Source: Verrucomicrobiota bacterium
GTDB lineage: Bacteria; Verrucomicrobiota; Verrucomicrobiia; Verrucomicrobiales; Verrucomicrobiaceae
Direction of reading: 5' to 3'
NCBI GenBank assembly: GCA_025360015.1
Contig: JANYCZ010000021.1
Coordinates: 62,001-126,000, forward strand
Length of the DNA stretch: 64,000 nt
This document shows, in pieces, positions 1,188-15,706 of this stretch (positions within the stretch are counted from its first letter, which is position 1; each line of letters opens with the position of its first letter). Both the position numbers and the translations under genes were made by a program. The notes below the pieces were generated by a model. It worked only from the letters and a program-made list of their open reading frames with translations, was not told the origin of the DNA and did not search any database.

Positions 1188-1511
1188 TCACTCCGGCAGT
1201 TGGTCGAAATGGAACTGGCAGCAGCCCAGATCAAGCGTGTTGGTGTCACGCGCGAGCTTTTCGCGAAACGCCTCCGCCAGCGCATAGATGCGCTGCTGCC
1301 CCTGCTTCTCCACTTCCAGCAGCCCGGCCTCTTTAAGCACCCGCAGGTGCTTTGAGACGTTGTAAGGCGTGACATGGAGAGCTTCACACAGCTCGGTGAC
1401 GGGCTTCGCGCCACCGATCAGCGCGCGCACCAGACGGAGACGCGTCGGCTCTCCCAGCGCACGCATGGCGGTGAGGCAGTCGAACGAACGTGTCACGGTG
1501 CGTGGTGGCAT
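1188..1511 (-). CDS. ArsR/SmtB-family repressor with C-terminal Cys pair
   Basis: A 107-residue winged-helix metalloregulator expected to repress its own gene and the divergent operon until it binds a soft metal or metalloid. The N-terminal LGEPTRLRLVRAL segment (about 19-31) and the recognition-helix region around residues 37-60 (VTELCEALHVTPYNVSKHL) are typical of ArsR proteins. The classical ELCVCDL metal site is absent: the matching place reads ELCEAL with a single Cys42. Instead there is a vicinal pair Cys97-Cys98 near the C-terminus (LGCCQFHFD). From memory, vicinal C-terminal Cys pairs occur in ArsR proteins that respond to methylarsenite. That fits the ArsI-like protein encoded downstream of the divergent operon. 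A perfect 12-bp palindrome lies 73-84 bp upstream of its start. The inducer is inferred and not shown. Confidence 0.88.
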   Translation of the reverse strand: MPPRTVTRSFDCLTAMRALGEPTRLRLVRALIGGAKPVTELCEALHVTPYNVSKHLRVLKEAGLLEVEKQGQQRIYALAEAFREKLARDTNTLDLGCCQFHFDQLPE

Positions 1512-1583
1512 GGCGGGATGTTTAGCAGAGAGGCCATGTCATCGCAAGAACGCCCGGGGCTGGGGGTGAAATAATATTTGCCA

Positions 1584-1595
1584 ATATGCGCATAT
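1584..1595. promoter_or_regulatory. Perfect 12-bp palindrome, likely ArsR operator
   Basis: ATATGCGCATAT, set in an AT-rich island (about 1571-1602) in otherwise GC-rich DNA, lies between the divergent ArsR-type gene and the TonB receptor gene. It is 21-32 bp upstream of the receptor start, where a repressor would block RNA polymerase. Dyads of this size and base composition are typical operators for ArsR-family dimers. Assignment to this protein is by position only. Confidence 0.6.
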
Positions 1596-1615
1596 AAGAT
1601 AAAGCACGCGCCGCC

Positions 1616-3808
1616 ATGACTCTCCCGACTCATTCCCTTCACCGTGCCCTGCCGCGTCTTCTCGCCGCGACCGCCCTCCTGTCCACCTGCTCCGCTTTGG
1701 CTCAGCAGGCAGACGTGAAAAAAGACGAACAAGCCACGCCGGTGAATCTCAATGAGATCATCATCTCCGCGCCGAAGCTCTCAGACAAGACCCTGCTCGA
1801 ACTGCCGATCAGCGCCAGCGTGACGACCAGGAAGACTCTGCAGGATGCGGGGATGTACACCGTGAAGGACGCCGCCATGTACGCGCCGAACACCACCTTC
1901 ACCGAATTCAGCGCCCGCGCCATCAGCACCCCTCGCATGCGTGGCATCGGTGGCTCGCCGACCAATCCCGGCGTCACCACTTACATGGACGGCGTGCCTC
2001 AGACCAATGGCAACTCCTCCAGCATCATGCTGCTCGATGTGGAGCAGATCGATTTCGTGCGCGGGCCCATCGGCGCTCTGTTTGGCCGTAACACTGCGGG
2101 TGGTCTGGTCAACATCACCAGCCGCCGTCCCACCATGAAGGGCTGGGAAGGCGAGGCGCAGACCATGATCGGCAACTACAACCTGCAGGACTACCGCGCA
2201 CGCGTCAGCGGCGCTCTCATTGAAGACGTCCTCGGCTTCAGCTTCATGGGCGGCTACAATCAGCGCGACGGCTACACCAAAAACACCGTGAACGGCCAGC
2301 CGATCGACAATCGCGGCTCCTGGTTCGGCAAAACCCAGTTCCTCTGGACCCCGGACAAGCAGTTGGAAGTGCGCCTGATCATCGCCGGTGAAAGCGCCCG
2401 TGACGGCGACTACGCGCTGAATGATGTGGGGCAGTTGCGCGCCAACCCACGGCGTTCCGCCCGTGACTTCGCCGGCTTCACCAAGCGTGACGTGCTCATG
2501 CCCACCCTCCAGGTGACATGGCACGGCGACTCGTTCGATTTCACCTCCACCACCGGCCTGGTGTGGTGGAAAACCCAGGACACCACAGACCTCGACTACT
2601 CCACGTTCAACTTCGTCCCTGGCGGCACCTTCCTGCTGCGCAACAACCGCCAGCAGCAGACCACCTGGAGCCAGGAGTTCCGCTTCTCCAATCCGAAGGG
2701 CGTGCCGGTCACCATCAGCGACTCGGCCTTCCTCACCTGGCAGGCGGGCACGTTCTTCTTTGACCAGACATTCCAGCAGACCACCTTCCAGAATCAGGAC
2801 AATGTCTTCTTCCCGGTCTTCATTCCGGCCAACACCACCAACACTGCCGCCCATCTCCATGACCAGGGCATTGGCACGTATGCTCAGGCCACCCTGACCG
2901 CCTGGAAGAAACTGGACGTCACTGCTGGTCTGCGCTGGGACCTTGAGCACAAGCAGGCGGATCTGTCCGCCAGCCGTGGGCCTGTTGCCCCGCCGTTCCT
3001 GCCATCACTGGACGCCTCCTCACGCACGTCGCGTTCGTTCAGCCAGGTGACGCCCCAGACATCCGTCGCCTATCGTTTCACGCCGGGCCTCATGGGCTAC
3101 TTCGGCTTCGCCGGTGGTTACAAAGCCGGTGGCTTCAACACTGCCTCCGTCACTGGCCGCACGAACTACGATCAGGAGCGCACCTGGAACTACGAAGTCG
3201 GTCTCAAGGGCCGCGCCTTGCAGGACAAGCTCGGCTTCCAGCTCGCCCTCTTCTACACCGACTGGAGAAACCTCCAGCTCAATACCCCCAACGGCGCTTC
3301 CCTCGCCACCTATGACATCGTCAATGCTGGCAACGCGGCCTCCAAGGGCATCGAGCTCTCCCTCAACTACCAGGCCACCTCGAGCTGGACGCTCTTCGGC
3401 AGCGCCGGCCTGCAAACCGCCCGTTTCCTCTCCGGCAGCATGGACAACGGGGCGAACATTGGTGGCAACAAAGTCCCCTACACGCCGAACTACACCGCGG
3501 CCGTCGGCACCCAGTACAACTGGGAGCTGACCCACGGCTGGACCCTCTACGCGCGTGCGGATGTGCAGTTCCTCGGCGGCTTCGTCTATGACAGCACCAA
3601 TCAGGCCGGCCAGAACGCTTACACCCTGGCAAACTTCCGCCTCGGCGTGCGCCGCGCGACTTGGTACTCGGAGTTCTTCGTGAACAACGCCTTCAACACC
3701 CGCTACATCCCCACCGCCATTCCATTCCCCGGCCTCGCCGCTTCCGGCTACGTCGGCGAAAGCGGTGCGCCGCTGACCTGCGGCGTGCGCGCCGGCATCA
3801 AATTTTAG
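1616..3808 (+). CDS. TonB-dependent outer-membrane receptor
   Basis: A 730-residue TonB-dependent transporter of the outer membrane that would import a large or scarce ligand using the TonB-ExbBD energy system. A signal peptide ends near residue 29 (ALA). A TonB-box-like stretch EIIISA is at 47-52. A plug domain follows, with the conserved RGPIGALFGRNTAGG segment and NITSRRP, and then a 22-strand-type barrel ending in the typical C-terminal Phe (AGIKF). The overall layout is that of iron-complex receptors (COG1629) rather than SusC proteins, and there is no SusD partner. It is the first gene of the plus-strand run dioxygenase and MFS, and the palindrome just upstream suggests ArsR control. 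Given that context, the ligand may be an organoarsenical or an arsenic-bearing natural product, but an iron chelate is also possible. Confidence 0.92.
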   Translation: MTLPTHSLHRALPRLLAATALLSTCSALAQQADVKKDEQATPVNLNEIIISAPKLSDKTLLELPISASVTTRKTLQDAGMYTVKDAAMYAPNTTFTEFSARAISTPRMRGIGGSPTNPGVTTYMDGVPQTNGNSSSIMLLDVEQIDFVRGPIGALFGRNTAGGLVNITSRRPTMKGWEGEAQTMIGNYNLQDYRARVSGALIEDVLGFSFMGGYNQRDGYTKNTVNGQPIDNRGSWFGKTQFLWTPDKQLEVRLIIAGESARDGDYALNDVGQLRANPRRSARDFAGFTKRDVLMPTLQVTWHGDSFDFTSTTGLVWWKTQDTTDLDYSTFNFVPGGTFLLRNNRQQQTTWSQEFRFSNPKGVPVTISDSAFLTWQAGTFFFDQTFQQTTFQNQDNVFFPVFIPANTTNTAAHLHDQGIGTYAQATLTAWKKLDVTAGLRWDLEHKQADLSASRGPVAPPFLPSLDASSRTSRSFSQVTPQTSVAYRFTPGLMGYFGFAGGYKAGGFNTASVTGRTNYDQERTWNYEVGLKGRALQDKLGFQLALFYTDWRNLQLNTPNGASLATYDIVNAGNAASKGIELSLNYQATSSWTLFGSAGLQTARFLSGSMDNGANIGGNKVPYTPNYTAAVGTQYNWELTHGWTLYARADVQFLGGFVYDSTNQAGQNAYTLANFRLGVRRATWYSEFFVNNAFNTRYIPTAIPFPGLAASGYVGESGAPLTCGVRAGIKF

Positions 3809-3883: not shown

Positions 3884-4645
3884 ATGCCACTCACTCCTGA
3901 TCAAATCGCCGCCTACCATCGCGATGGCTTCGTCACGGCTCACGGTGTCTTTGCCGCCGACGCCGCTGCGCTGCAGGACGAAGCCGTGCGCCTCACCGGC
4001 CTCACGCCGCTCATCGACGTCAACAACATCCGCTGCCGCTGGCAGGACCATGCAGAGACCGGCGAGTGCCGCTTTGACTGCTTTGATCCCGTGATCGACA
4101 TCAGCCCCGTCTGCGAGCGCATCGCCCGCTCGCCCATCTTGCGCGACATGGCCGCCCAGCTCTACGGCGAGCCCGCCTTCCTCTTCAAAGACAAGCTCAT
4201 CTTCAAGCCGCGGGGTGCCAAAGGTTACGACATGCACCAGGACTACATCTCCTGGGACAGCTTCCCCGAGTCCTTCCTCACCGTCATCGTCGCCATCGAT
4301 CCCTCTGACACCTCCAGCGGCGCCACCGAAGTCTTCCCCGGCTATCACCAGCGAGGCTGCATGAGCCCACGTGACGGCATGTACCACACCCTGAAAGTCG
4401 ATCAGGTGGACCTCACTCAAGGCGTCGTGCTCGAGCTCCAGCCCGGCGACGTCGCCTTCTTCAGCGGCTTCACCCCCCACCGCTCCGCGCCAAACCAGTC
4501 CGCCCACTCCCGCCGCCTGCTTTACCTCAGCTTCAATGCCGCACGCGATGGCGGCGACGTCCGCACCGCGCATTACGAGTTCTTCCACAACTGGCTCCAG
4601 GAGCGCTACGCCGAGTACGGCAAAACCGAAACCTACTTCCGATGA
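3884..4645 (+). CDS. Phytanoyl-CoA dioxygenase (PhyH)-family oxygenase
   Basis: A 253-residue non-haem Fe(II)/2-oxoglutarate oxygenase of the PhyH family, cytosolic (no signal peptide). The iron facial triad is visible as His118-x-Asp120 (MHQD) and His199 (TPHRSAPN); an Arg at 210-211 (SRRLLYLS) would bind 2-oxoglutarate. I chose the ATG at 3884 because MPLTPDQIAAYHRDGFV is the usual beginning of the family; an in-frame ATG at 3833 would add a 17-residue tail of unconvincing composition. The stop overlaps the ATG of the MFS gene by 4 bp (ATGA), so the two are translationally coupled. Family members act on lipids, ectoine, antibiotics and phosphonates such as 2-aminoethylphosphonate. In this neighbourhood an arsonate- or arsenolipid-type substrate is conceivable, but that is speculation. 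Confidence 0.88.
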   Translation: MPLTPDQIAAYHRDGFVTAHGVFAADAAALQDEAVRLTGLTPLIDVNNIRCRWQDHAETGECRFDCFDPVIDISPVCERIARSPILRDMAAQLYGEPAFLFKDKLIFKPRGAKGYDMHQDYISWDSFPESFLTVIVAIDPSDTSSGATEVFPGYHQRGCMSPRDGMYHTLKVDQVDLTQGVVLELQPGDVAFFSGFTPHRSAPNQSAHSRRLLYLSFNAARDGGDVRTAHYEFFHNWLQERYAEYGKTETYFR

Positions 4646-5850
4646 ACGACTCAAAACACTGCGACATCCCCGCCGTGTGGACACAGGTCATCGCCGGTGC
4701 CCTGCTCATGCTCGCCACGCTGCCCGGCCGCACCCAGGGCCTCGGCCTCATCACCGAGCCCCTGCTTGAGGACCTGCGGCTCACCAAGGCCAGCTACGCC
4801 CACATCAATCTCTGGGCCACCCTCCTCGGCTCCCTCGTTTGCCTCCCTGTCGGCCTGTGGCTGGACCGCCGTGGCCCCCGTCTCGCCACCGGCGTGTTAC
4901 TGGTAGGGCTGGCCGCAGTGGTCTGGGCCATCAGCGCCCTTCCTTCGCCGCCCCCTCAATCCGTCATGATGCAGCTTTTCGCCCTCATCTTGCTCACACG
5001 CGCGCTCGGCCAGAGTGCCTTGTCTGTCGTCAGCATCGGCGTCGCTGGCGCGGCCTTTCGCCAGGGGCGCAGCGGTGCCGCAGCAGCCTACACCGTCCTG
5101 CTCTCCGTCTTCTTCATGGTGGCATTCGGCATCCTCGGCGGCCTCATTCGCAGTGCAGGCTGGCGCAGCGCATGGGCAGACGTCGCCCTGGCTCTCCTCG
5201 TGCTCGCACCCCTCGCGTTCATGCTGCCAAAGAAGATCCACAAAGAGAAATCCACCATCAGCTCCGCTGAAGGCTTCACCCTCGCGCAATCCCTGCGCCA
5301 GCCCGCCTTCTGGCTTTACAGCGCCGGCATCGCTCTCTTCGCCGGAGTGCAGGCAGGCATCGGCCTGTTCAATGAAGCCCTGCTCGCCGAGCGCGGTTTT
5401 GATCGTGAAACCTATCACCACTTCCTCGCTGGCACCGCCATCATCTCCCTCATCGGCCAGGGTCTGGGTGGCGGCACGCGCTGGATGCCCCTCCGCCACT
5501 GGCTGGGACTCGCTCTCATCGTCCAAGCCGGCGGTCTTGCAGCCTTCTCCCTCATCTCCGGCACCGGCCAGCTCTGGGGCCTGGCCTCCATCATGGGCAT
5601 CTCCGCCGGCATCATCACCGTCGCCTTCTTCGCCATCTGGCCGGAGGTGTTTGGCAAGCGCCACCTCGGCCGCATCATGGGCGCCGCCCAGATGCTCACC
5701 GTTCTCGCCTCCGCCCTCGGCCCCCTCCTCTTGGAGCGCGGTGCCGCCCTCACCGGCACCTTCACCCGCAGCCTCCTCCTCGTCGCACCCCTCTCTCTGC
5801 TCCTCGGCCTCCTCACCCTCTGGCTCCGCCCCAAGTCACCCATCGCTTAA
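4642..5850 (+). CDS. MFS transporter
   Basis: A 402-residue major facilitator with about 12 hydrophobic segments. The MFS signature between helices 2 and 3 is visible as GLWLDRRGPRLA (about 72-83). The centre has a polar loop with KKIHKEKS, as expected between the two six-helix halves. It overlaps the dioxygenase stop by 4 bp, so the product of one reaction may be the cargo of this carrier. It does not look like the arsenic permeases ArsB, Acr3 or ArsP, and I see no clear resemblance to ArsJ or ArsK. Direction of transport and substrate are unknown; export of a modified compound or inner-membrane import of what the TonB receptor delivers both fit. Confidence 0.88.
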   Translation: MNDSKHCDIPAVWTQVIAGALLMLATLPGRTQGLGLITEPLLEDLRLTKASYAHINLWATLLGSLVCLPVGLWLDRRGPRLATGVLLVGLAAVVWAISALPSPPPQSVMMQLFALILLTRALGQSALSVVSIGVAGAAFRQGRSGAAAAYTVLLSVFFMVAFGILGGLIRSAGWRSAWADVALALLVLAPLAFMLPKKIHKEKSTISSAEGFTLAQSLRQPAFWLYSAGIALFAGVQAGIGLFNEALLAERGFDRETYHHFLAGTAIISLIGQGLGGGTRWMPLRHWLGLALIVQAGGLAAFSLISGTGQLWGLASIMGISAGIITVAFFAIWPEVFGKRHLGRIMGAAQMLTVLASALGPLLLERGAALTGTFTRSLLLVAPLSLLLGLLTLWLRPKSPIA

Positions 5851-5960
5851 GGAGCGCGGAATTCATTCCGCAGCACCCCGCAAGCACCCGCCGCTCCGCA
5901 TCTCCCCATGCCCTCTCCCGTGGGATGGGTGTGGCGTCAGCCCGCCCGTCTCCGAGCGCG
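5851..5960 (+). repeat. Interspersed repeat (AGCGCGG family plus GTGGCG family)
   Basis: Starting one base after the MFS stop is a GC-rich unit containing GCGGAATTCATTCCGC, a near-perfect dyad that can act as a hairpin, followed by CCGCAAGCA and GCTCCGCA words. The same unit recurs at 8504-8563 and in diverged form at 17529-17585. It is followed by a second word family, GGATGGGTGTGGCGTCAGCC, which recurs at about 8622-8651 and 45296-45320. The unit may serve as terminator of the receptor-dioxygenase-MFS operon. Confidence 0.7.
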
Positions 5961-6286: not shown

Positions 6287-8500
6287 ATGAGCGCCCCCGC
6301 CCGCAAATTCCATCTCTCCCTCAACGTCTCCGATCTCACCCGCTCGGTCGCCTTCTACCGCGTGTTGTTCGGACTCGATCCCGCCAAGCATCACCCCGAC
6401 TACGCCAAGTTCGAAGTCGAATCACCCCCCACCGTCTTCTCCCTCATCCCCGGCCGCGCTGGTGGCGGCGGCTCGCTCAATCACGTCGGCCTCTGCCTGC
6501 TCGACTCCGAAGAACTCGTCGCCATCCAGATGCGTCTGGAACAAGCCGGCCACAAAACCCTGCGTGAAGACGGCGTCGCCTGCTGCTACTCACGCCAGAC
6601 CAAGTTCTGGGTGCGCGATCCCGACGGCGTCCTCCTCGAACTCTATATCTTCCACGAAGACCTCGACGATCACGGCGACCACCACGTACCCGAGTCCGAT
6701 CCCCCCACCCTCATGGGCCGTGATGCCGAAGCCCCCGCCCCTGCGGTAACGTGGACCCATCATCTCGGCGAATCCATCGCGCTACCGCTCGCGCAAGATG
6801 CCTTCAGCGTACAGGAAGTCGTGCTCGAAGGCACCCTCAACGCCACCGGCATTGATCTCCCCGCTCTGCTCAAAGATGCCCTCCGCATCCTCAAACCCGG
6901 CGGCACCATCTCACTCCACGGCCTCGTCGCCGATCGCCCTCTGGCAGATCCCGCGCCACCCTTGCCCGGCCCCGCCGCCGCCGTGCAGCACGTCCCAGAT
7001 TTCCCCAGTCTCGCGCCCCTGCTGCACGCTGCCGGATTTCGCAACGCCCGCTTCACCAAGCTCTCCGAAAAAGGTTGGTTCGAAGCCGAAGGCGTCCCTC
7101 TGCGCGAGGTGCTCCTCAGCGCCACCAAGCCCGGCTTCCGCGCCTCCAAACAAGATCAAACCGTCGTCTATCTCGGCCCGCAACACGCCATCGAAGACGA
7201 CTTCGGCAATCGTTTCATCAAAGGCAGCCCGGTGGCCCTCAACACACACGACTGGCAGTCCCTGAAAAACACCGCCGCCTCATCATTTGCCTTGTTGCAG
7301 CCGCAGGTCGAAACGCCCAACCTGCCAGCCACCCCCATGCCTTCCAAAGCACGTTACATCATGATCGGCGGTTTCCTCGGCGCTGGCAAAACCACCACCG
7401 TCGGCCGCCTCGCCAAACATCTCACCGACCAAGGACTCCGCGTCGGCCTCATCACCAACGATCAGGCCGGTGGCCTCGTCGATACCAAACTCCTGCGCGG
7501 CCAGGGCTATGCCACCGAGGAAATCGCTGGCGGCTGCTTCTGCTGCCGCTTCAACACCCTCGTTGACGCCGCCAGCAAGCTCGCCAATGACGCCAAGCCG
7601 GACGTCTTCATCGCCGAGCCCGTCGGCAGTTGCACCGATCTCGTTGCCACCGTCACCTACCCGCTCCGCCGCATGTACGGCGACGCCTTCACCGTCGCCC
7701 CCCTCAGCGTCCTTGTGGACCCCATCCGCGCACGCCGTGTCTTCGGCCTCGATCAAGGCGGCACCTTCTCCGCCAAGGTCGCCTACATCTTCAAGAAGCA
7801 GCTCGAAGAAGCCGACATCATCGTCATCAGCAAAAGCGATCTCATTGAAGACGCCTCGCGCGAAGAACTCCGCTCCGTTCTCGCCAAGGAGTTCCCCCTG
7901 GCAAAGATCGTCACCGCCTCACCGCGCCAGGAAACTGGCCTCGATGAACTCTTCGCCAGCCTCATGACCGACGAGCAGGCCCGCCGCAATCCCATGTCCG
8001 TCGATTACGAAGTCTATGCCGATGGCGAAGCCCTCCTCGGCTGGCTCAATGCCACGGTGACGCTCAAGGCAGACGATGAGTTTGATGCAAATGAGTTCCT
8101 CAAACAGCTCGCCTTGATCGTGCAGGCCCAGTTGCAGCGTGAAGGCACCGAGATCGCCCATTTCAAAATGACCTTCAGTCCCGACGATGGCATCGCCGGC
8201 GAACTTGCCAGCATCAATCTCGTCCGCAGCGACTACGTCGCCGAACTCGGCATGGAACTCGACGAGCCCACCACCGGCGGCCAGCTCATCATCAATCTTC
8301 GCGCCGAAGCCGACCCCGCGTCACTCATGACCGCCGTCAAAGACGGCCTCGATGAAGCCACCCTGAACTTCTTCGGTCTCAAAGCCACCACCGATCACGA
8401 AGAACACTTCCGCCCCGGCAAACCCACCCCCACCCATCGCGATGGCGAAGTCGTCATGGAAACCAAAGGCGGCTGCAAACCCGGCAGCGGCTGCTGCTAA
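6287..8500 (+). CDS. ArsI-like lyase / ArsM-like C-half / COG0523 GTPase fusion
   Basis: A 737-residue cytosolic protein with three parts. (1) Residues 1-125 are a VOC/glyoxalase-fold domain resembling ArsI/CadI: His9, His66 and Glu118 fit the Fe site, and vicinal Cys99-Cys100 (GVACCYS) fits the arsenic-binding pair, with nearly the spacing I recall for ArsI. (2) Residues about 150-330 look like only the C-terminal half of an ArsM-type methyltransferase (DALRILKPGGTISLHG, then REVLLSATKP and VVYLGP..IEDDFGNRF). The SAM-binding motif I region is missing and there is no Cys. (3) Residues 357-737 are a COG0523/CobW metallochaperone GTPase: Walker A GFLGAGKTT (362-370), CFCC metal motif (417-420), SKSD guanine motif (515-518). 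The protein ends in CKPGSGCC, a likely metal-binding tail. I start at 6287 because the ArsI-like fold begins there. Role inferred: cleavage or handling of trivalent organoarsenicals with GTP-driven metal loading. Confidence 0.85.
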   Translation: MSAPARKFHLSLNVSDLTRSVAFYRVLFGLDPAKHHPDYAKFEVESPPTVFSLIPGRAGGGGSLNHVGLCLLDSEELVAIQMRLEQAGHKTLREDGVACCYSRQTKFWVRDPDGVLLELYIFHEDLDDHGDHHVPESDPPTLMGRDAEAPAPAVTWTHHLGESIALPLAQDAFSVQEVVLEGTLNATGIDLPALLKDALRILKPGGTISLHGLVADRPLADPAPPLPGPAAAVQHVPDFPSLAPLLHAAGFRNARFTKLSEKGWFEAEGVPLREVLLSATKPGFRASKQDQTVVYLGPQHAIEDDFGNRFIKGSPVALNTHDWQSLKNTAASSFALLQPQVETPNLPATPMPSKARYIMIGGFLGAGKTTTVGRLAKHLTDQGLRVGLITNDQAGGLVDTKLLRGQGYATEEIAGGCFCCRFNTLVDAASKLANDAKPDVFIAEPVGSCTDLVATVTYPLRRMYGDAFTVAPLSVLVDPIRARRVFGLDQGGTFSAKVAYIFKKQLEEADIIVISKSDLIEDASREELRSVLAKEFPLAKIVTASPRQETGLDELFASLMTDEQARRNPMSVDYEVYADGEALLGWLNATVTLKADDEFDANEFLKQLALIVQAQLQREGTEIAHFKMTFSPDDGIAGELASINLVRSDYVAELGMELDEPTTGGQLIINLRAEADPASLMTAVKDGLDEATLNFFGLKATTDHEEHFRPGKPTPTHRDGEVVMETKGGCKPGSGCC

Positions 8501-8503
8501 ACC

Positions 8504-8665
8504 GGAGCGCGGAATTCATTCCGCAACACTCCGCAAACATCCCCCGCTCCGCGTGCCGCATAGCATCGCTGCGCGCGTTGAATAGGTTTTCAAAGCACAA
8601 CAGCGGAGGCATGCGCATTCGTAGGATGGGCGTGGCGACAGCCCGCCCGTCCACCAGCGCATGAA
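8504..8665 (+). repeat. Second copy of the interspersed repeat pair
   Basis: The AGCGCGG unit (8504-8563, with the dyad GCGGAATTCATTCCGC) begins four bases after the stop of the fusion gene, exactly as the first copy follows the MFS stop. The GGATGGGCGTGGCGACAGCC unit follows at about 8622-8651. Both operon ends in this locus therefore carry the same repeat pair. The dyad may serve as a terminator. Confidence 0.7.
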
Positions 8666-8757
8666 AAACACCTCGATCCTCCGAGTCCAATCCGGCATTT
8701 CATAATGCCTATATCAGCGTCACATCGGCGGTTAAAATCTCTGCTCCCTCTGCCTCC

Positions 8758-9282
8758 AAGTGGCCCGCACAGTCCTCTGTGCGGTTCTGGGCGGTCGCTC
8801 ACGTTGAAATCTCACAAAGACTGTCAGCCCTCTTGGGTGCGCCAGCTTGCAGCCCTCGGTCCGCGAGCGTGTCGAAAGCACCACCGACCACTTCCTTTTT
8901 CCCCTTTTTCGGCCATCCCCCCCCTCCCTGAATTCCGCAAGCAAATCCCACACCTTGGCGTAGCCTCTGCTCCCCTCAAAACCTGATGATCCACATCTCC
9001 ACGCCCCGCGCTCCCAAGTGGCCCGCACAGTCCTCTGTGCGGTTCTGGGCGGTCGCTCACGTTGAAATCTCACAAAGACTGTCAGCCCTCTTGGGTGCGC
9101 CAGCTTGCAGCCCTCGGTCCGCGAGCGTGTCGAAAGAACCACCGACCACTCCCTTTTTCTCCTTTTTCTCCTTTTTCGGCCATCCCTCCCCTCCCTGAAT
9201 TCCGCAAGCAAACCCCAGACCCTGGCGTAGCCTCTGCTTCCCTCAAAACCTGATGAGCCACATCTCCACGCCCCGCGCTCCC
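8758..9282 (+). repeat. 258-bp tandem duplication reaching into DUF1552 gene
   Basis: A unit beginning AAGTGGCCCGCACAGTCC occurs at 8758 and again at 9016, so the period is 258 bp. The two copies are nearly identical. Both end with the sequence around the DUF1552 start codon and its first ten codons (to 9282). Copy 1 therefore carries an ATG at 8986 followed by HISTPRAP, a dead copy of the gene's start. Both copies contain a CCTTTTTCGGCCATCCC word shared with the flank of the GxxExxY gene near 57.8 kb. Confidence 0.92.
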
Positions 9283-10650
9283 ATGTCCCGCCGTGCTGCT
9301 CTGCGCGGACTCGGCGCCACCATTGCGTTGCCGTTTCTGGATGCCATGGCTCCCACCGCCCGCGCCTCCCAGGGAGCAGGGAAAGCCTTCCCCACCCGCA
9401 TCGGCGTGCTCTTCATGCCAAACGGCGTGCACCAAGACCGCTGGACCCCCGAAGGCGAAGGCAAAGACTTCAAGTTCTCTCCCATCCTGCAGCCTCTGGA
9501 GCGGCATCGCGCGGACATCAACATCCTCACCCAGCTCGGCCACGCCAACTGCCAGGGCGGGGATGGTCACTACGCCAAAACCGCCAACTGGCTCACCGGC
9601 ACCGAGATCGAAAAAACCACCGGCAAGAACCTCCGCTGCGGCGTCAGCATGGACCAGGTCTTCGCCCAGCAGGCCGGCAGCCTCGCACGCTTTCCCTCCC
9701 TCGAACTCGGCACCGAGCCCGTCATGACCGGCGTCGATTTCAACGTCAACTACACCATGCTATACGGCTCCCACGTGGCCTGGCGCACCCCCACCACCCC
9801 ACTACCGCCGGAGATCAATCCGCGTTTCGTTTTCGACCGTCTCTTCCGTGGCAATCCCGAAGAGCGCAAAGCCTCCGCCCTCGAAAACAAAAGCGTCCTC
9901 GACCTCGTCATGTCAGACGCCAAAGCCCTGCGCGGTCGCGTTGGCGCAGATGACCAGCATAGACTCGACGAGTACCTCGAAAGCATCCGCAGCGTCGAGC
10001 AGCGCATCGAGGCCGACATCGCCCGCGTTGCCAGCGGTGAAAATCTCGATCCTGCCGCCAAAGACGCCATCACCCAGCTCGACCAGCGCATCACGAACTC
10101 CATGGCCCAGCAGAAAGACCCCGGCAGCAGTCTTCGCTTGGATCACACTGAGCACTCACGCCTCATGATGGAGCTCATGACCCTCGCCTTCTGGAACGAC
10201 TCCACCCGCGTCAGCACCTTCATGTTTGGCTGGGCTGTCAGCGGCAAGAGCTTCACCTTTCTCGACGGCGTGAAGCACGGCCACCACGAATGCTCCCATC
10301 ACGAAAAGAAGCCCGAGAAACTGGAGCAATATCAAAAGATCAACACCTGGCACACCGAGCAGTTCGCCCACCTGCTCGACCGCATGAAATCCATCAAGGA
10401 AGGCGACGGCACCCTGCTCGATCACACCCTCCTCCTCTTCGGCTCCAGCATGCGCGACGGCAATGCCCACAGCCCCAAGAATCTCCCCCTCGTCCTCGCC
10501 GGTCACGGCGGCGGTCTCACCGGCGGCCGCCACCTCGTCAGCCCCACCGACACCCCCCTCTGCAATCTCTTCCTCAGCATGCACCAGCTCGGCGGCCTAA
10601 AAACCGACCACTTCGGCGACAGCACCGGTCCCCTCAAAGGCCTGGTATAG
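9253..10650 (+). CDS. DUF1552 domain protein, Tat-type leader
   Basis: A 465-residue protein of the DUF1552 family, found mainly in Planctomycetes and Verrucomicrobia, usually next to DUF1592-type cytochrome proteins. Biochemical function is unknown; the fold is related to the alkaline-phosphatase/DUF1501 group. The twin-arginine leader SRRAALRGLGATIALPFLDA points to Tat export. The ATG at 9253 gives 10 residues before a second ATG at 9283 (MSRRAALRG). The second start looks more natural for a Tat leader, because the first ten codons lie inside the duplicated upstream unit. The stop codon (10648-10650) lies inside the first copy of a 139-bp tandem repeat. The partner-type DUF1592 gene lies downstream in the opposite direction, not in an operon with it. 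Confidence 0.87.
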   Translation: MSHISTPRAPMSRRAALRGLGATIALPFLDAMAPTARASQGAGKAFPTRIGVLFMPNGVHQDRWTPEGEGKDFKFSPILQPLERHRADINILTQLGHANCQGGDGHYAKTANWLTGTEIEKTTGKNLRCGVSMDQVFAQQAGSLARFPSLELGTEPVMTGVDFNVNYTMLYGSHVAWRTPTTPLPPEINPRFVFDRLFRGNPEERKASALENKSVLDLVMSDAKALRGRVGADDQHRLDEYLESIRSVEQRIEADIARVASGENLDPAAKDAITQLDQRITNSMAQQKDPGSSLRLDHTEHSRLMMELMTLAFWNDSTRVSTFMFGWAVSGKSFTFLDGVKHGHHECSHHEKKPEKLEQYQKINTWHTEQFAHLLDRMKSIKEGDGTLLDHTLLLFGSSMRDGNAHSPKNLPLVLAGHGGGLTGGRHLVSPTDTPLCNLFLSMHQLGGLKTDHFGDSTGPLKGLV

Positions 10651-14755: not shown

Positions 14756-15706
14756 ATGCTTTTACTCATCACTTTGGCCGTCATCGTCGTGGCTTATGCC
14801 AATGGGGCGAACGCCAATTTCAAAGGCGTGGCGTCCCTCTTTGGCAGCGGCACCACCAGCTACCGCACAGCGGTAAACTGGGCCGCGCTCACGACCGCTG
14901 CAGGCTGTGTCGCGGCGATGTCCATGACGGTCGGCTTGCTGAAGGCTTTTTCCGGCAAAGGCCTCGTGCCAGACGCGCTGATCGCGCAGCCCCTGTTTTT
15001 ATTCGCCGTGGCGGCAGGCGCAGGAGCCACGGGCCTGCTGGCCACGCGCATCGGTTTTCCCGTCTCCACCACCCACATGCTCACCGGCGCTCTGCTTGGC
15101 GCAGGCTGGATCGCGGGCGGGGTGGACCTCGACAAGCTGTGGGACAGCTTCATCAAACCCCTCCTCCTCAGCCCGGTGCTAGCCGTGCTGGCGGGCTCCG
15201 TGATTTATCTCGTTTTAAAGACCCTGCGCCTCGCACCAGCTCACCGCACCCGCACGCTGGATGCCCTGCACTTCCTCAGCGCAGGCGCAGTCTGCTTCGC
15301 GCGCGGCGTGAATGACACGCCCAAGATGGCGGCGCTGCTGCTCGGCGTCGGCTGGCTGCACGGCAGCACCGGCATGATCTTGATCGCGGTGGCCATGGCC
15401 GCAGGCGGTTTGGTCAGCGCACGCCAGGTCGCCGAGACATTGGCGCACAAGATCACCGGCATGAATCCAGGCCAGGGCTTCGCGGCAAATCTCGCCACCG
15501 CCGTGCTGGTCACCACGGCCAGCATTCACGGCCTGCCGGTTTCGACCACTCACGTCTCCGTCGGTGCGCTGCTCGGCATCGGCATCACCACCCGGCAGGC
15601 AAAATGGCGCACCGTCATCCCCGTGCTCGCGGCCTGGGTCATCACTCTCCCGCTCTCGGCCGTGGTGGCAGGCTGCCTCTTCACCCTCGGCCGCCATCTT
15701 TTCTAA
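14756..15706 (+). CDS. PiT-family anion permease, possibly sulfur-oxyanion
   Basis: A 316-residue inner-membrane permease of the PiT family with the two inverted family repeats. The first has ANGANANFKGVASLFG near residue 16 and FPVSTTHML; the second has ARGVNDTPKMAALL and LPVSTTHVSVGALLG. In PiT proteins I recall GAND in the first repeat; here the Asp is replaced by Ala (GANA), while the second repeat keeps its VND Asp. There is no DUF47/PhoU-like partner next to it, unlike the second PiT gene at 33.2 kb. The two following genes, spaced 28 and 25 bp, encode an outer-membrane protein and a periplasmic rhodanese. Because CysP sulfate permeases belong to the same superfamily, sulfate or thiosulfate is a plausible substrate; phosphate remains possible. 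Confidence 0.82.
   Translation: MLLLITLAVIVVAYANGANANFKGVASLFGSGTTSYRTAVNWAALTTAAGCVAAMSMTVGLLKAFSGKGLVPDALIAQPLFLFAVAAGAGATGLLATRIGFPVSTTHMLTGALLGAGWIAGGVDLDKLWDSFIKPLLLSPVLAVLAGSVIYLVLKTLRLAPAHRTRTLDALHFLSAGAVCFARGVNDTPKMAALLLGVGWLHGSTGMILIAVAMAAGGLVSARQVAETLAHKITGMNPGQGFAANLATAVLVTTASIHGLPVSTTHVSVGALLGIGITTRQAKWRTVIPVLAAWVITLPLSAVVAGCLFTLGRHLF

Follow-up and report, generated by a model that had tools for sequence, protein, structure and literature searches.

Can an enzyme that acts on arsenic and the protein that would supply its metal be carried by one and the same polypeptide chain? This question is raised by a 64,000-nucleotide stretch of contig JANYCZ010000021.1 from a Verrucomicrobiota bacterium (assembly GCA_025360015.1), hereafter the window, in which a single gene encodes, in this order, an ArsI/CadI-type VOC domain, the C-terminal half of the arsenite methyltransferase ArsM and a COG0523 GTPase. 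We propose that this fusion gene belongs to an arsenic-responsive operon that takes up and oxidatively processes an organic arsenical, with an Fe(II) lyase fused to a putative metallochaperone, a reading to which we assign a probability of about one half. The arsenic link of the operon is well supported; the 'self-metallating' demethylase put forward in the original prediction, which was made from the letters of the window, is treated here as a hypothesis by analogy.

A single gene shared by six genomes

The original prediction of one 737-residue frame joining three domains is borne out: the gene (6287-8500, plus strand) has 737 codons and no internal stop, each of the three segments has profile matches that agree with its assignment, and the residues that had been named are in place (His9, His66, Glu118, Cys99-Cys100, and GGCFCC with Cys417, Cys419 and Cys420). 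The same architecture, which it had proposed to look for elsewhere, is present with identical frame and order in 6 of the 96 genomes searched, one of them being the genome of the window. Within the Prosthecobacter-like genus, the VOC domain and the ArsM half occur together in 6 of 48 genomes, a seventh match being an ArsM; four of the fusion copies come from Verrucomicrobia metagenome-assembled genomes, and close relatives are labelled Prosthecobacter. Ratios of nonsynonymous to synonymous substitution (dN/dS) were computed pairwise among the fused proteins by the Nei-Gojobori method, excluding pairs with an uncomputable dS and with dS above 1 in several others; the VOC domain gave ~0.02-0.08, the ArsM half ~0.07-0.20 and the GTPase part ~0.01-0.07. 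These low values indicate that all three folded parts, the catalytically dead ArsM half included, are selectively maintained. A frameshift, an assembly artefact or a chance fusion was ruled out, since six genomes share the frame and every folded segment is under purifying selection; the separate genes disguised by a frameshift, against which the original prediction had cautioned, were thus not what was found.

A complete ArsI-type site followed by a dead ArsM half

The VOC domain matches PF00903 (E 4.4e-13). Against NF041414, the model for ArsI and CadI, it scores 119.7 bits as an isolated domain, above the cut-off of 116, and 115.4 bits, slightly below it, inside the whole protein; the isolated domains of four fused relatives score 119.0-122.1 bits, so that with the domain in isolation the cut-off is passed by five of the six fused proteins. 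Its closest solved structures are those of the 5c4p group (E 1.8e-21, with a gapless alignment), the next VOC family being FosA at E 0.21. In Thermomonospora curvata ArsI, the positions of interest are Gln8, Tyr38, His65, Cys98, Cys99, Gln103, Lys105 and Glu117, with His5 taking the place of Gln8 in the Bacillus enzyme, and the vicinal cysteine pair binds the substrate (accessible part of PMC12607644). They map onto the eight window residues listed in Table 1, all of which, metal ligands and vicinal cysteines included, are invariant in the six fused proteins. Judged from sequence, the ArsI active site of the VOC domain is complete, and a carbon-arsenic (C-As) lyase activity is probable. Three distant ArsI-like VOC genes (family f9) were also encountered in the same class; the VOC proteins of loci L182 and L183 are ~32% identical to that of the window, and those of L183 (7807-12671) and L184 (434-4740) lie with proteins resembling, by eye, PhnG/H/I/J/K/L of carbon-phosphorus lyase, although the VOC gene of L184 did not reappear among the open reading frames listed for that locus.

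The middle segment matches positions 190-347 of the 356 positions of NF040538 weakly (E 1.1e-6; 28 bits, where the whole-protein cut-off is 500). Its ancestry is clearer in a profile-profile comparison with 18 full-length Verrucomicrobial ArsM proteins, which gave a probability of 98.2% and E 3.3e-14, the homology beginning near residue 168 of ArsM L119 (387 residues in all) and reaching the last residues of the segment. Residues 146-345 of the window protein contain no cysteine, and Cys177 and Cys229 (L119 numbering) are found in all 18 full-length proteins; the other fused proteins have a few cysteines in this half and none at the Cys177 site, which reads LEG in all six. The ArsM half is catalytically dead, because the S-adenosylmethionine (SAM)-binding half is absent and the window's copy lacks cysteine, and an active ArsM methyltransferase was ruled out on the same grounds. 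The 'half an ArsM' of the original prediction therefore stands as a statement of homology to the C-terminal half, and not as an expectation of methyltransferase activity. Across the six fused genomes, this half keeps invariant blocks.

The GTPase domain and its free-standing relatives

The third segment matches PF02492 (E 2.6e-23) and lies far under the cut-offs of the NCBIfam models NF041053 (59.6 against 180 bits), ZigA (53.1 against 600), CobW (39.8 against 332.1) and NF008578 (32 against 361), the models missed including a CobW-related selenoprotein model. In a 38-row alignment, GGFLGxGKTT and C-F-C-C are invariant and Ala366 nearly so; the base-recognition motif is SKSD, the usual GTPase motif being NKxD. 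A strong match to this domain occurs in 78 of the 96 genomes, fused in 6 and free-standing in 72, the free-standing relatives being ~60-95% identical. The C-terminal tail METKGGCKPGSGCC (8440-8500) is similar to the cysteine-rich tail of Verrucomicrobial ArsM (L119-L132 and L171-L174), HPKETKGQDYNATTEAANC...GTSCC, and a tail with at least three cysteines is present in 18 of 75 listed GTPase genes; this may be a common or convergent tail that binds metals or metalloids.

The neighbourhood of these genes contributes to the arsenic link. In 40 of the 78 genomes (35 of the 72 with a free-standing GTPase and 5 of the 6 with the fusion), a regulator of the same family as the window's ArsR (E 5e-16 or better) is encoded no more than 6 kb from the GTPase gene. 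Likewise, 11 of the 76 strong arsC-like genes are no farther than 6 kb from a GTPase gene (10 free-standing, 1 fused), where simple arithmetic (~13 kb of ~6 Mb) gives a chance expectation below 1. In a survey of 76 GTPase loci, a few of them from the same genome, the recurrent neighbours are phosphate/sulfate-permease-like genes (14 loci), major intrinsic protein (MIP) channels (8) and arsC-like genes (6); L036 and L042 have arsA and arsD within 6 kb of the GTPase gene, the L042 pair scoring above the cut-offs. Some or all members of another set, comprising GcvH-like, cysteine desulfurase, small CNCTYAQ, ferredoxin-like and radical-SAM proteins, recur near relatives of the GTPase at L083, L085, L091, L093, L096, L098, L099, L101, L102 and L105; the two CNCTYAQ proteins that were tried matched no NCBIfam model at 1e-6.

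An apparent operon headed by an ArsR-family regulator

The order TonB receptor, PhyH, major facilitator superfamily (MFS) transporter and fusion is the same in all six fused genomes, with the fusion last (Table 1). In five of them an ArsR-family gene stands divergently at the head of this gene series; in G043 the nearest ArsR is 13.7 kb from the fusion. The window's regulator scores 76 bits against NF033788 (cut-off 55) and 48 bits, under the cut-off of 150, against the CmtR model. Its C-terminal cysteine pair lies near the place of Cys95/Cys96 of AfArsR, a resemblance of sequence position, and those two residues are required by AfArsR for As(III) (accessible part of PMC8470949). The nearest solved structures of the TonB receptor are pesticin and siderophore receptors. 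For PhyH the top NCBIfam model is methylphosphonate hydroxylase, at 82 bits far under the cut-off of 500, and among the 96 genomes homologues more than 80% identical to it are found only in the six with the fusion. The stop codon of the MFS gene overlaps the start of the fusion in G013 (L134); in the window, the two genes are separated by a gap of 436 bases that holds a repeat resembling a repetitive extragenic palindromic (REP) element. The MFS protein of the window is 57-58% identical to those of its three nearest fused relatives and the PhyH protein 90-92%, which suggests that the transporter may have been replaced.

Comparison of intergenic regions by eye located an imperfect palindrome of the type TATTTGC-N8-GCAAATA, a putative ArsR operator. 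In the fused loci it stands between arsR and the TonB gene, and in G043 it is present without an adjacent arsR. It also stands immediately 5' of the GTPase gene in six of seven ordinary, free-standing loci that were compared, L055 being the one where it was not seen, and it precedes a longer leader in five further loci (L137-L140 and L032). With at most one mismatch, the 6.6 Mb genome contains two such sites, one of them that of the window, and the reversed control pattern occurs once; the second site (G000:C9:9848-9869) has a PQQ-repeat-like gene (named by eye) on one side and a transposase-like gene on the other. The 3 kb inspected around it showed no recognisable arsenic gene, and this site could be due to chance.

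In G033 (L135), the operon's own ArsR is followed after 9 bases by an oppositely directed set of an arsC-like gene (best model TIGR02691), an MIP channel marginally over the TIGR00861 cut-off, DUF6428 and a second ArsR with a CVC motif. For one of the six genomes with the fusion, this set is a direct connection between the fused operon and arsenic. The arsenic link is supported by the ArsR-headed operon, by the G033 set and by the ArsR and arsC-like genes near some free-standing GTPases.

Table 1. Features of the operon and of the fusion gene in the window
Feature	Position	Strand	Details
ArsR/SmtB-family regulator, divergent from the operon	1188..1511	-	Cys 12, 42, 97, 98 (C-terminal vicinal pair 97-98); HTH_20 E 8.3e-16
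Putative ArsR operator, upstream of the TonB gene	1575..1596	+	TATTTGCCAATATGCGCATATA; TATTTGC-N8-GCAAATA type
TonB-dependent receptor	1616..3808	+	PF00593 E 2e-35; PF07715 E 8e-16
PhyH-type Fe(II)/2-oxoglutarate oxygenase	3884..4645	+	PF05721 E 2.7e-22; start at the ATG common to relatives
MFS transporter	4642..5850	+	PF07690 E 9.5e-24
Fusion gene	6287..8500	+	737 aa, single open frame
ArsI/CadI-type VOC domain, residues 1-133	6287..6685	+	His9, Tyr39, His66, Cys99, Cys100, Gln104, Lys106, Glu118
C-terminal half of ArsM, catalytically dead, residues 153-344	6743..7318	+	no SAM-binding half, no Cys
COG0523/G3E GTPase, residues 351-737	7337..8500	+	GGFLGAGKTT, GGCFCC, HEEHFRPGKPTPTHR, tail GGCKPGSGCC; PF02492

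Further elements lie around these genes. A 49-bp direct repeat with a GCGGAATTCATTCCGC palindrome occurs directly past the MFS stop codon (5851-5899) and past that of the fusion (8504-8552), the two copies being 90% alike; its 20-base core has 35 copies in the genome at no more than one mismatch, the reversed control having none, as expected of a REP-like element. Downstream of the fusion, the intergenic region 8737-9286 contains two direct repeats (193 nt, 90% and 127 nt, 94%), and a phosphate/sulfate-permease-like gene (14756-15706) lies downstream of the operon, a relative of which closely follows the free-standing GTPase in various other genomes.

Distribution and history of the fusion

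Among 387 genomes of the phylum, only G000 and G043 encode the VOC domain and the ArsM half as a single protein, with eight further genomes matching single parts (VOC or ArsM half) at E 1e-8. None of 112 matching plasmid records covers 80% of the VOC domain plus ArsM half, and viral contigs gave no match to this combination. A scan of 84,980 species genomes used query peptides that are partly specific to the window and returned the best 80 of 321 relatives, and it is accordingly no fair negative for the combination elsewhere.

In the five loci with a longer leader, the leader lies behind stop codons and, when read in the frame of the GTPase, recalls in four of them the sequence FALLQPLVETP with which the ArsM half ends, barely so in L140; full-length ArsM aligns across this same stretch. 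The leader would seem to be a deletion scar, five sister genomes having lost TonB receptor, PhyH, MFS, VOC and ArsM while keeping the GTPase under the same operator. For the window's sister group, loss is taken to be the direction of change, given that the leader ahead of the free-standing gene can be read as the end of an ArsM. On a midpoint-rooted GTPase tree of 51 rows, the fused genes fall in three lineages, and the hypothesis that fused and scar-bearing GTPases form one clade was rejected (41 rows; approximately unbiased test, p-AU 2e-6), a test that is weakened by the group having been defined post hoc, after the first tree was known. A single simple origin of the fusion was discarded on these two results, and a coarse scan along the GTPase found no evident recombination breakpoint. 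The data are compatible both with an ancient fusion followed by repeated loss and with repeated acquisition of the block.

Proposed function and alternatives

It can be hypothesised that an inducer frees ArsR from the operator, allowing transcription of the TonB, PhyH, MFS and fusion genes. The TonB receptor, and perhaps the MFS transporter too, would bring the organoarsenical into the cell, where two proteins of Fe(II) enzyme types, PhyH and the VOC domain, would hydroxylate the arsenical and cleave the C-As bond. The GTPase domain may act as a built-in metallochaperone for the VOC domain, as made plausible by the precedents of Nha3 and IcmF discussed below, and the ArsM remnant could be a non-catalytic scaffold or substrate-docking domain retained from a former ArsM gene. 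The inorganic arsenic released would then pass to the arsC-like and other ars products of the cell.

Several observations weigh against this proposal. The VOC domain of G043 scores 113.4 bits, under the NF041414 cut-off, and since that model spans CadI too, a cadmium or other metal role would also be compatible with the domain. AlphaFold models of the fusion are poor (mean predicted local distance difference test score 35, and 56 in a model with the GTPase part better), and no domain interface is visible in them. The arsC-like proteins are under the TIGR02691 cut-off (139 in G033, and 132, against 174), and in G000, G002, G013, G021 and G043, all draft assemblies, the arsC-like gene is on a separate contig. 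At the level of the GTPase family, 37 of the 72 free-standing genes have no ArsR of the window's family within 6 kb, zinc-type ABC genes (named by eye) are near the GTPase at 6 of the 76 loci, and some relatives adjoin the GcvH-like, cysteine desulfurase and radical-SAM set (partly named by eye); the GTPase is therefore not everywhere an arsenic gene. Finally, the GTPase is unfused in most relatives, and the lyase part seems to have been lost in five sister lineages, which makes the link dispensable for the GTPase.

The alternative that survives best, possible although somewhat unlikely, is that the fusion was an accident, a deletion having brought an arsI, the 3' portion of an arsM and the gene for the GTPase together; the parts would work independently, the ArsM piece being tolerated as a linker and the benefit being limited to co-expression under ArsR. 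The dead state of the ArsM half is consistent with this, as are the sister genomes that manage with the GTPase alone and the looser flanks of the ArsM half, where residues 134-152 (dN/dS 0.08-0.43) and 339-350 (0.10-1.09) are far more variable. However, the constraint on the ArsM half itself (0.07-0.20), with blocks kept invariant in six genomes and across three GTPase lineages, exceeds what a passive spacer would need. We consider it improbable that the operon serves metal resistance or supply, with a CadI-like VOC domain, an ArsR/SmtB regulator of the Cd/Pb/Zn type, a metallophore-type TonB receptor and a COG0523 protein handling zinc or cadmium. The breadth of NF041414, the 48 bits of the regulator against CmtR (though under the cut-off), the likeness of the receptor to siderophore receptors and the zinc-type ABC neighbours point in that direction, but the ArsM ancestry of the middle segment, the arsC-like/MIP/arsR set adjoining the fused operon in G033 and the arsC-like, arsA and arsD genes next to some free-standing GTPases do not. 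Very improbable is a VOC domain whose substrate is another small molecule that the operon takes up or produces (a phosphonate, for instance, or an antibiotic of the arsinothricin type), PhyH catalysing the key step, for which the methylphosphonate hydroxylase match of PhyH and the phn-like neighbours of L183 and L184 could be invoked, against the ArsR and ars context and the conserved vicinal cysteine pair known to bind substrate in ArsI (accessible part of PMC12607644).

The organoarsenical operon with a fused lyase and putative metallochaperone may be taken further, in a form that we hold to be rather unlikely: the first COG0523 metallochaperone fused to its client, in which an Fe(II) organoarsenical lyase would be metallated by its own GTPase, an ArsM pseudo-enzyme would connect the two and present or shield the trivalent arsenical, and the ArsR-controlled operon would import organoarsenicals whose carbon these bacteria could use. 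To our knowledge, few COG0523 proteins have known clients. Numerous COG0523 sequence clusters are without a characterised member (accessible part of PMC9164220). A stable fusion points directly to a candidate client and turns metal loading of a partner by COG0523 into a question about one protein, for which natural controls exist in the lineages without the lyase and in the free-standing GTPase found in this genus. If the proposal is true, a metal-dependent enzyme with its own metal supplier attached exists in a few Verrucomicrobiota. The findings also connect a COG0523 subfamily, together with the TonB/PhyH/MFS set, to arsenic in this phylum.

Comparison with known systems

Among the best matches in open-access full-text literature, judged on titles and the starts of abstracts, no account was found of this fusion or of a COG0523 gene in an ars operon. 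The closest relative of the first domain is the C-As lyase ArsI of T. curvata, Bacillus and Nostoc, which shares the VOC domain, the metal ligands, the vicinal cysteines and the Tyr/Gln/Lys residues; solved ArsI chains have 123-126 residues, whereas the VOC domain of the window belongs to a chain that continues into a dead ArsM half and a GTPase. An ArsI-like domain also forms the C-terminus of a larger protein in SAR11 CsdB, for which a demethylating role has been proposed, not shown; its partner, unlike here, is a cysteine desulfurase, with no GTPase or ArsM piece in the protein as described in the accessible part of PMC6426599. Arsenic proteins are joined in one chain, as in the window, in the ArsR-ArsC, AqpS-ArsC, Acr3-ArsC and ArsN fusions, none of which, in the accessible part of PMC6205960, involves ArsI, ArsM or a COG0523 GTPase. 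ArsM itself is homologous to the middle segment through its C-terminal half, but the segment lacks the SAM-binding half and the catalytic cysteine. For the third domain, the COG0523 protein Nha3 is needed for an Fe-type nitrile hydratase and its CXCC motif is essential (accessible part of PMC2770081); it is thus a CXCC GTPase tied to an iron enzyme, though as a separate protein and with another client (PMC2770081 and PMC9164220, in their accessible parts). The covalent arrangement is found in IcmF, where, as in the window fusion, a G3E chaperone is joined to its client, the client being, however, a cobalamin mutase and the G3E domain belonging to the MeaB subfamily rather than to COG0523 (accessible part of PMC9164220).

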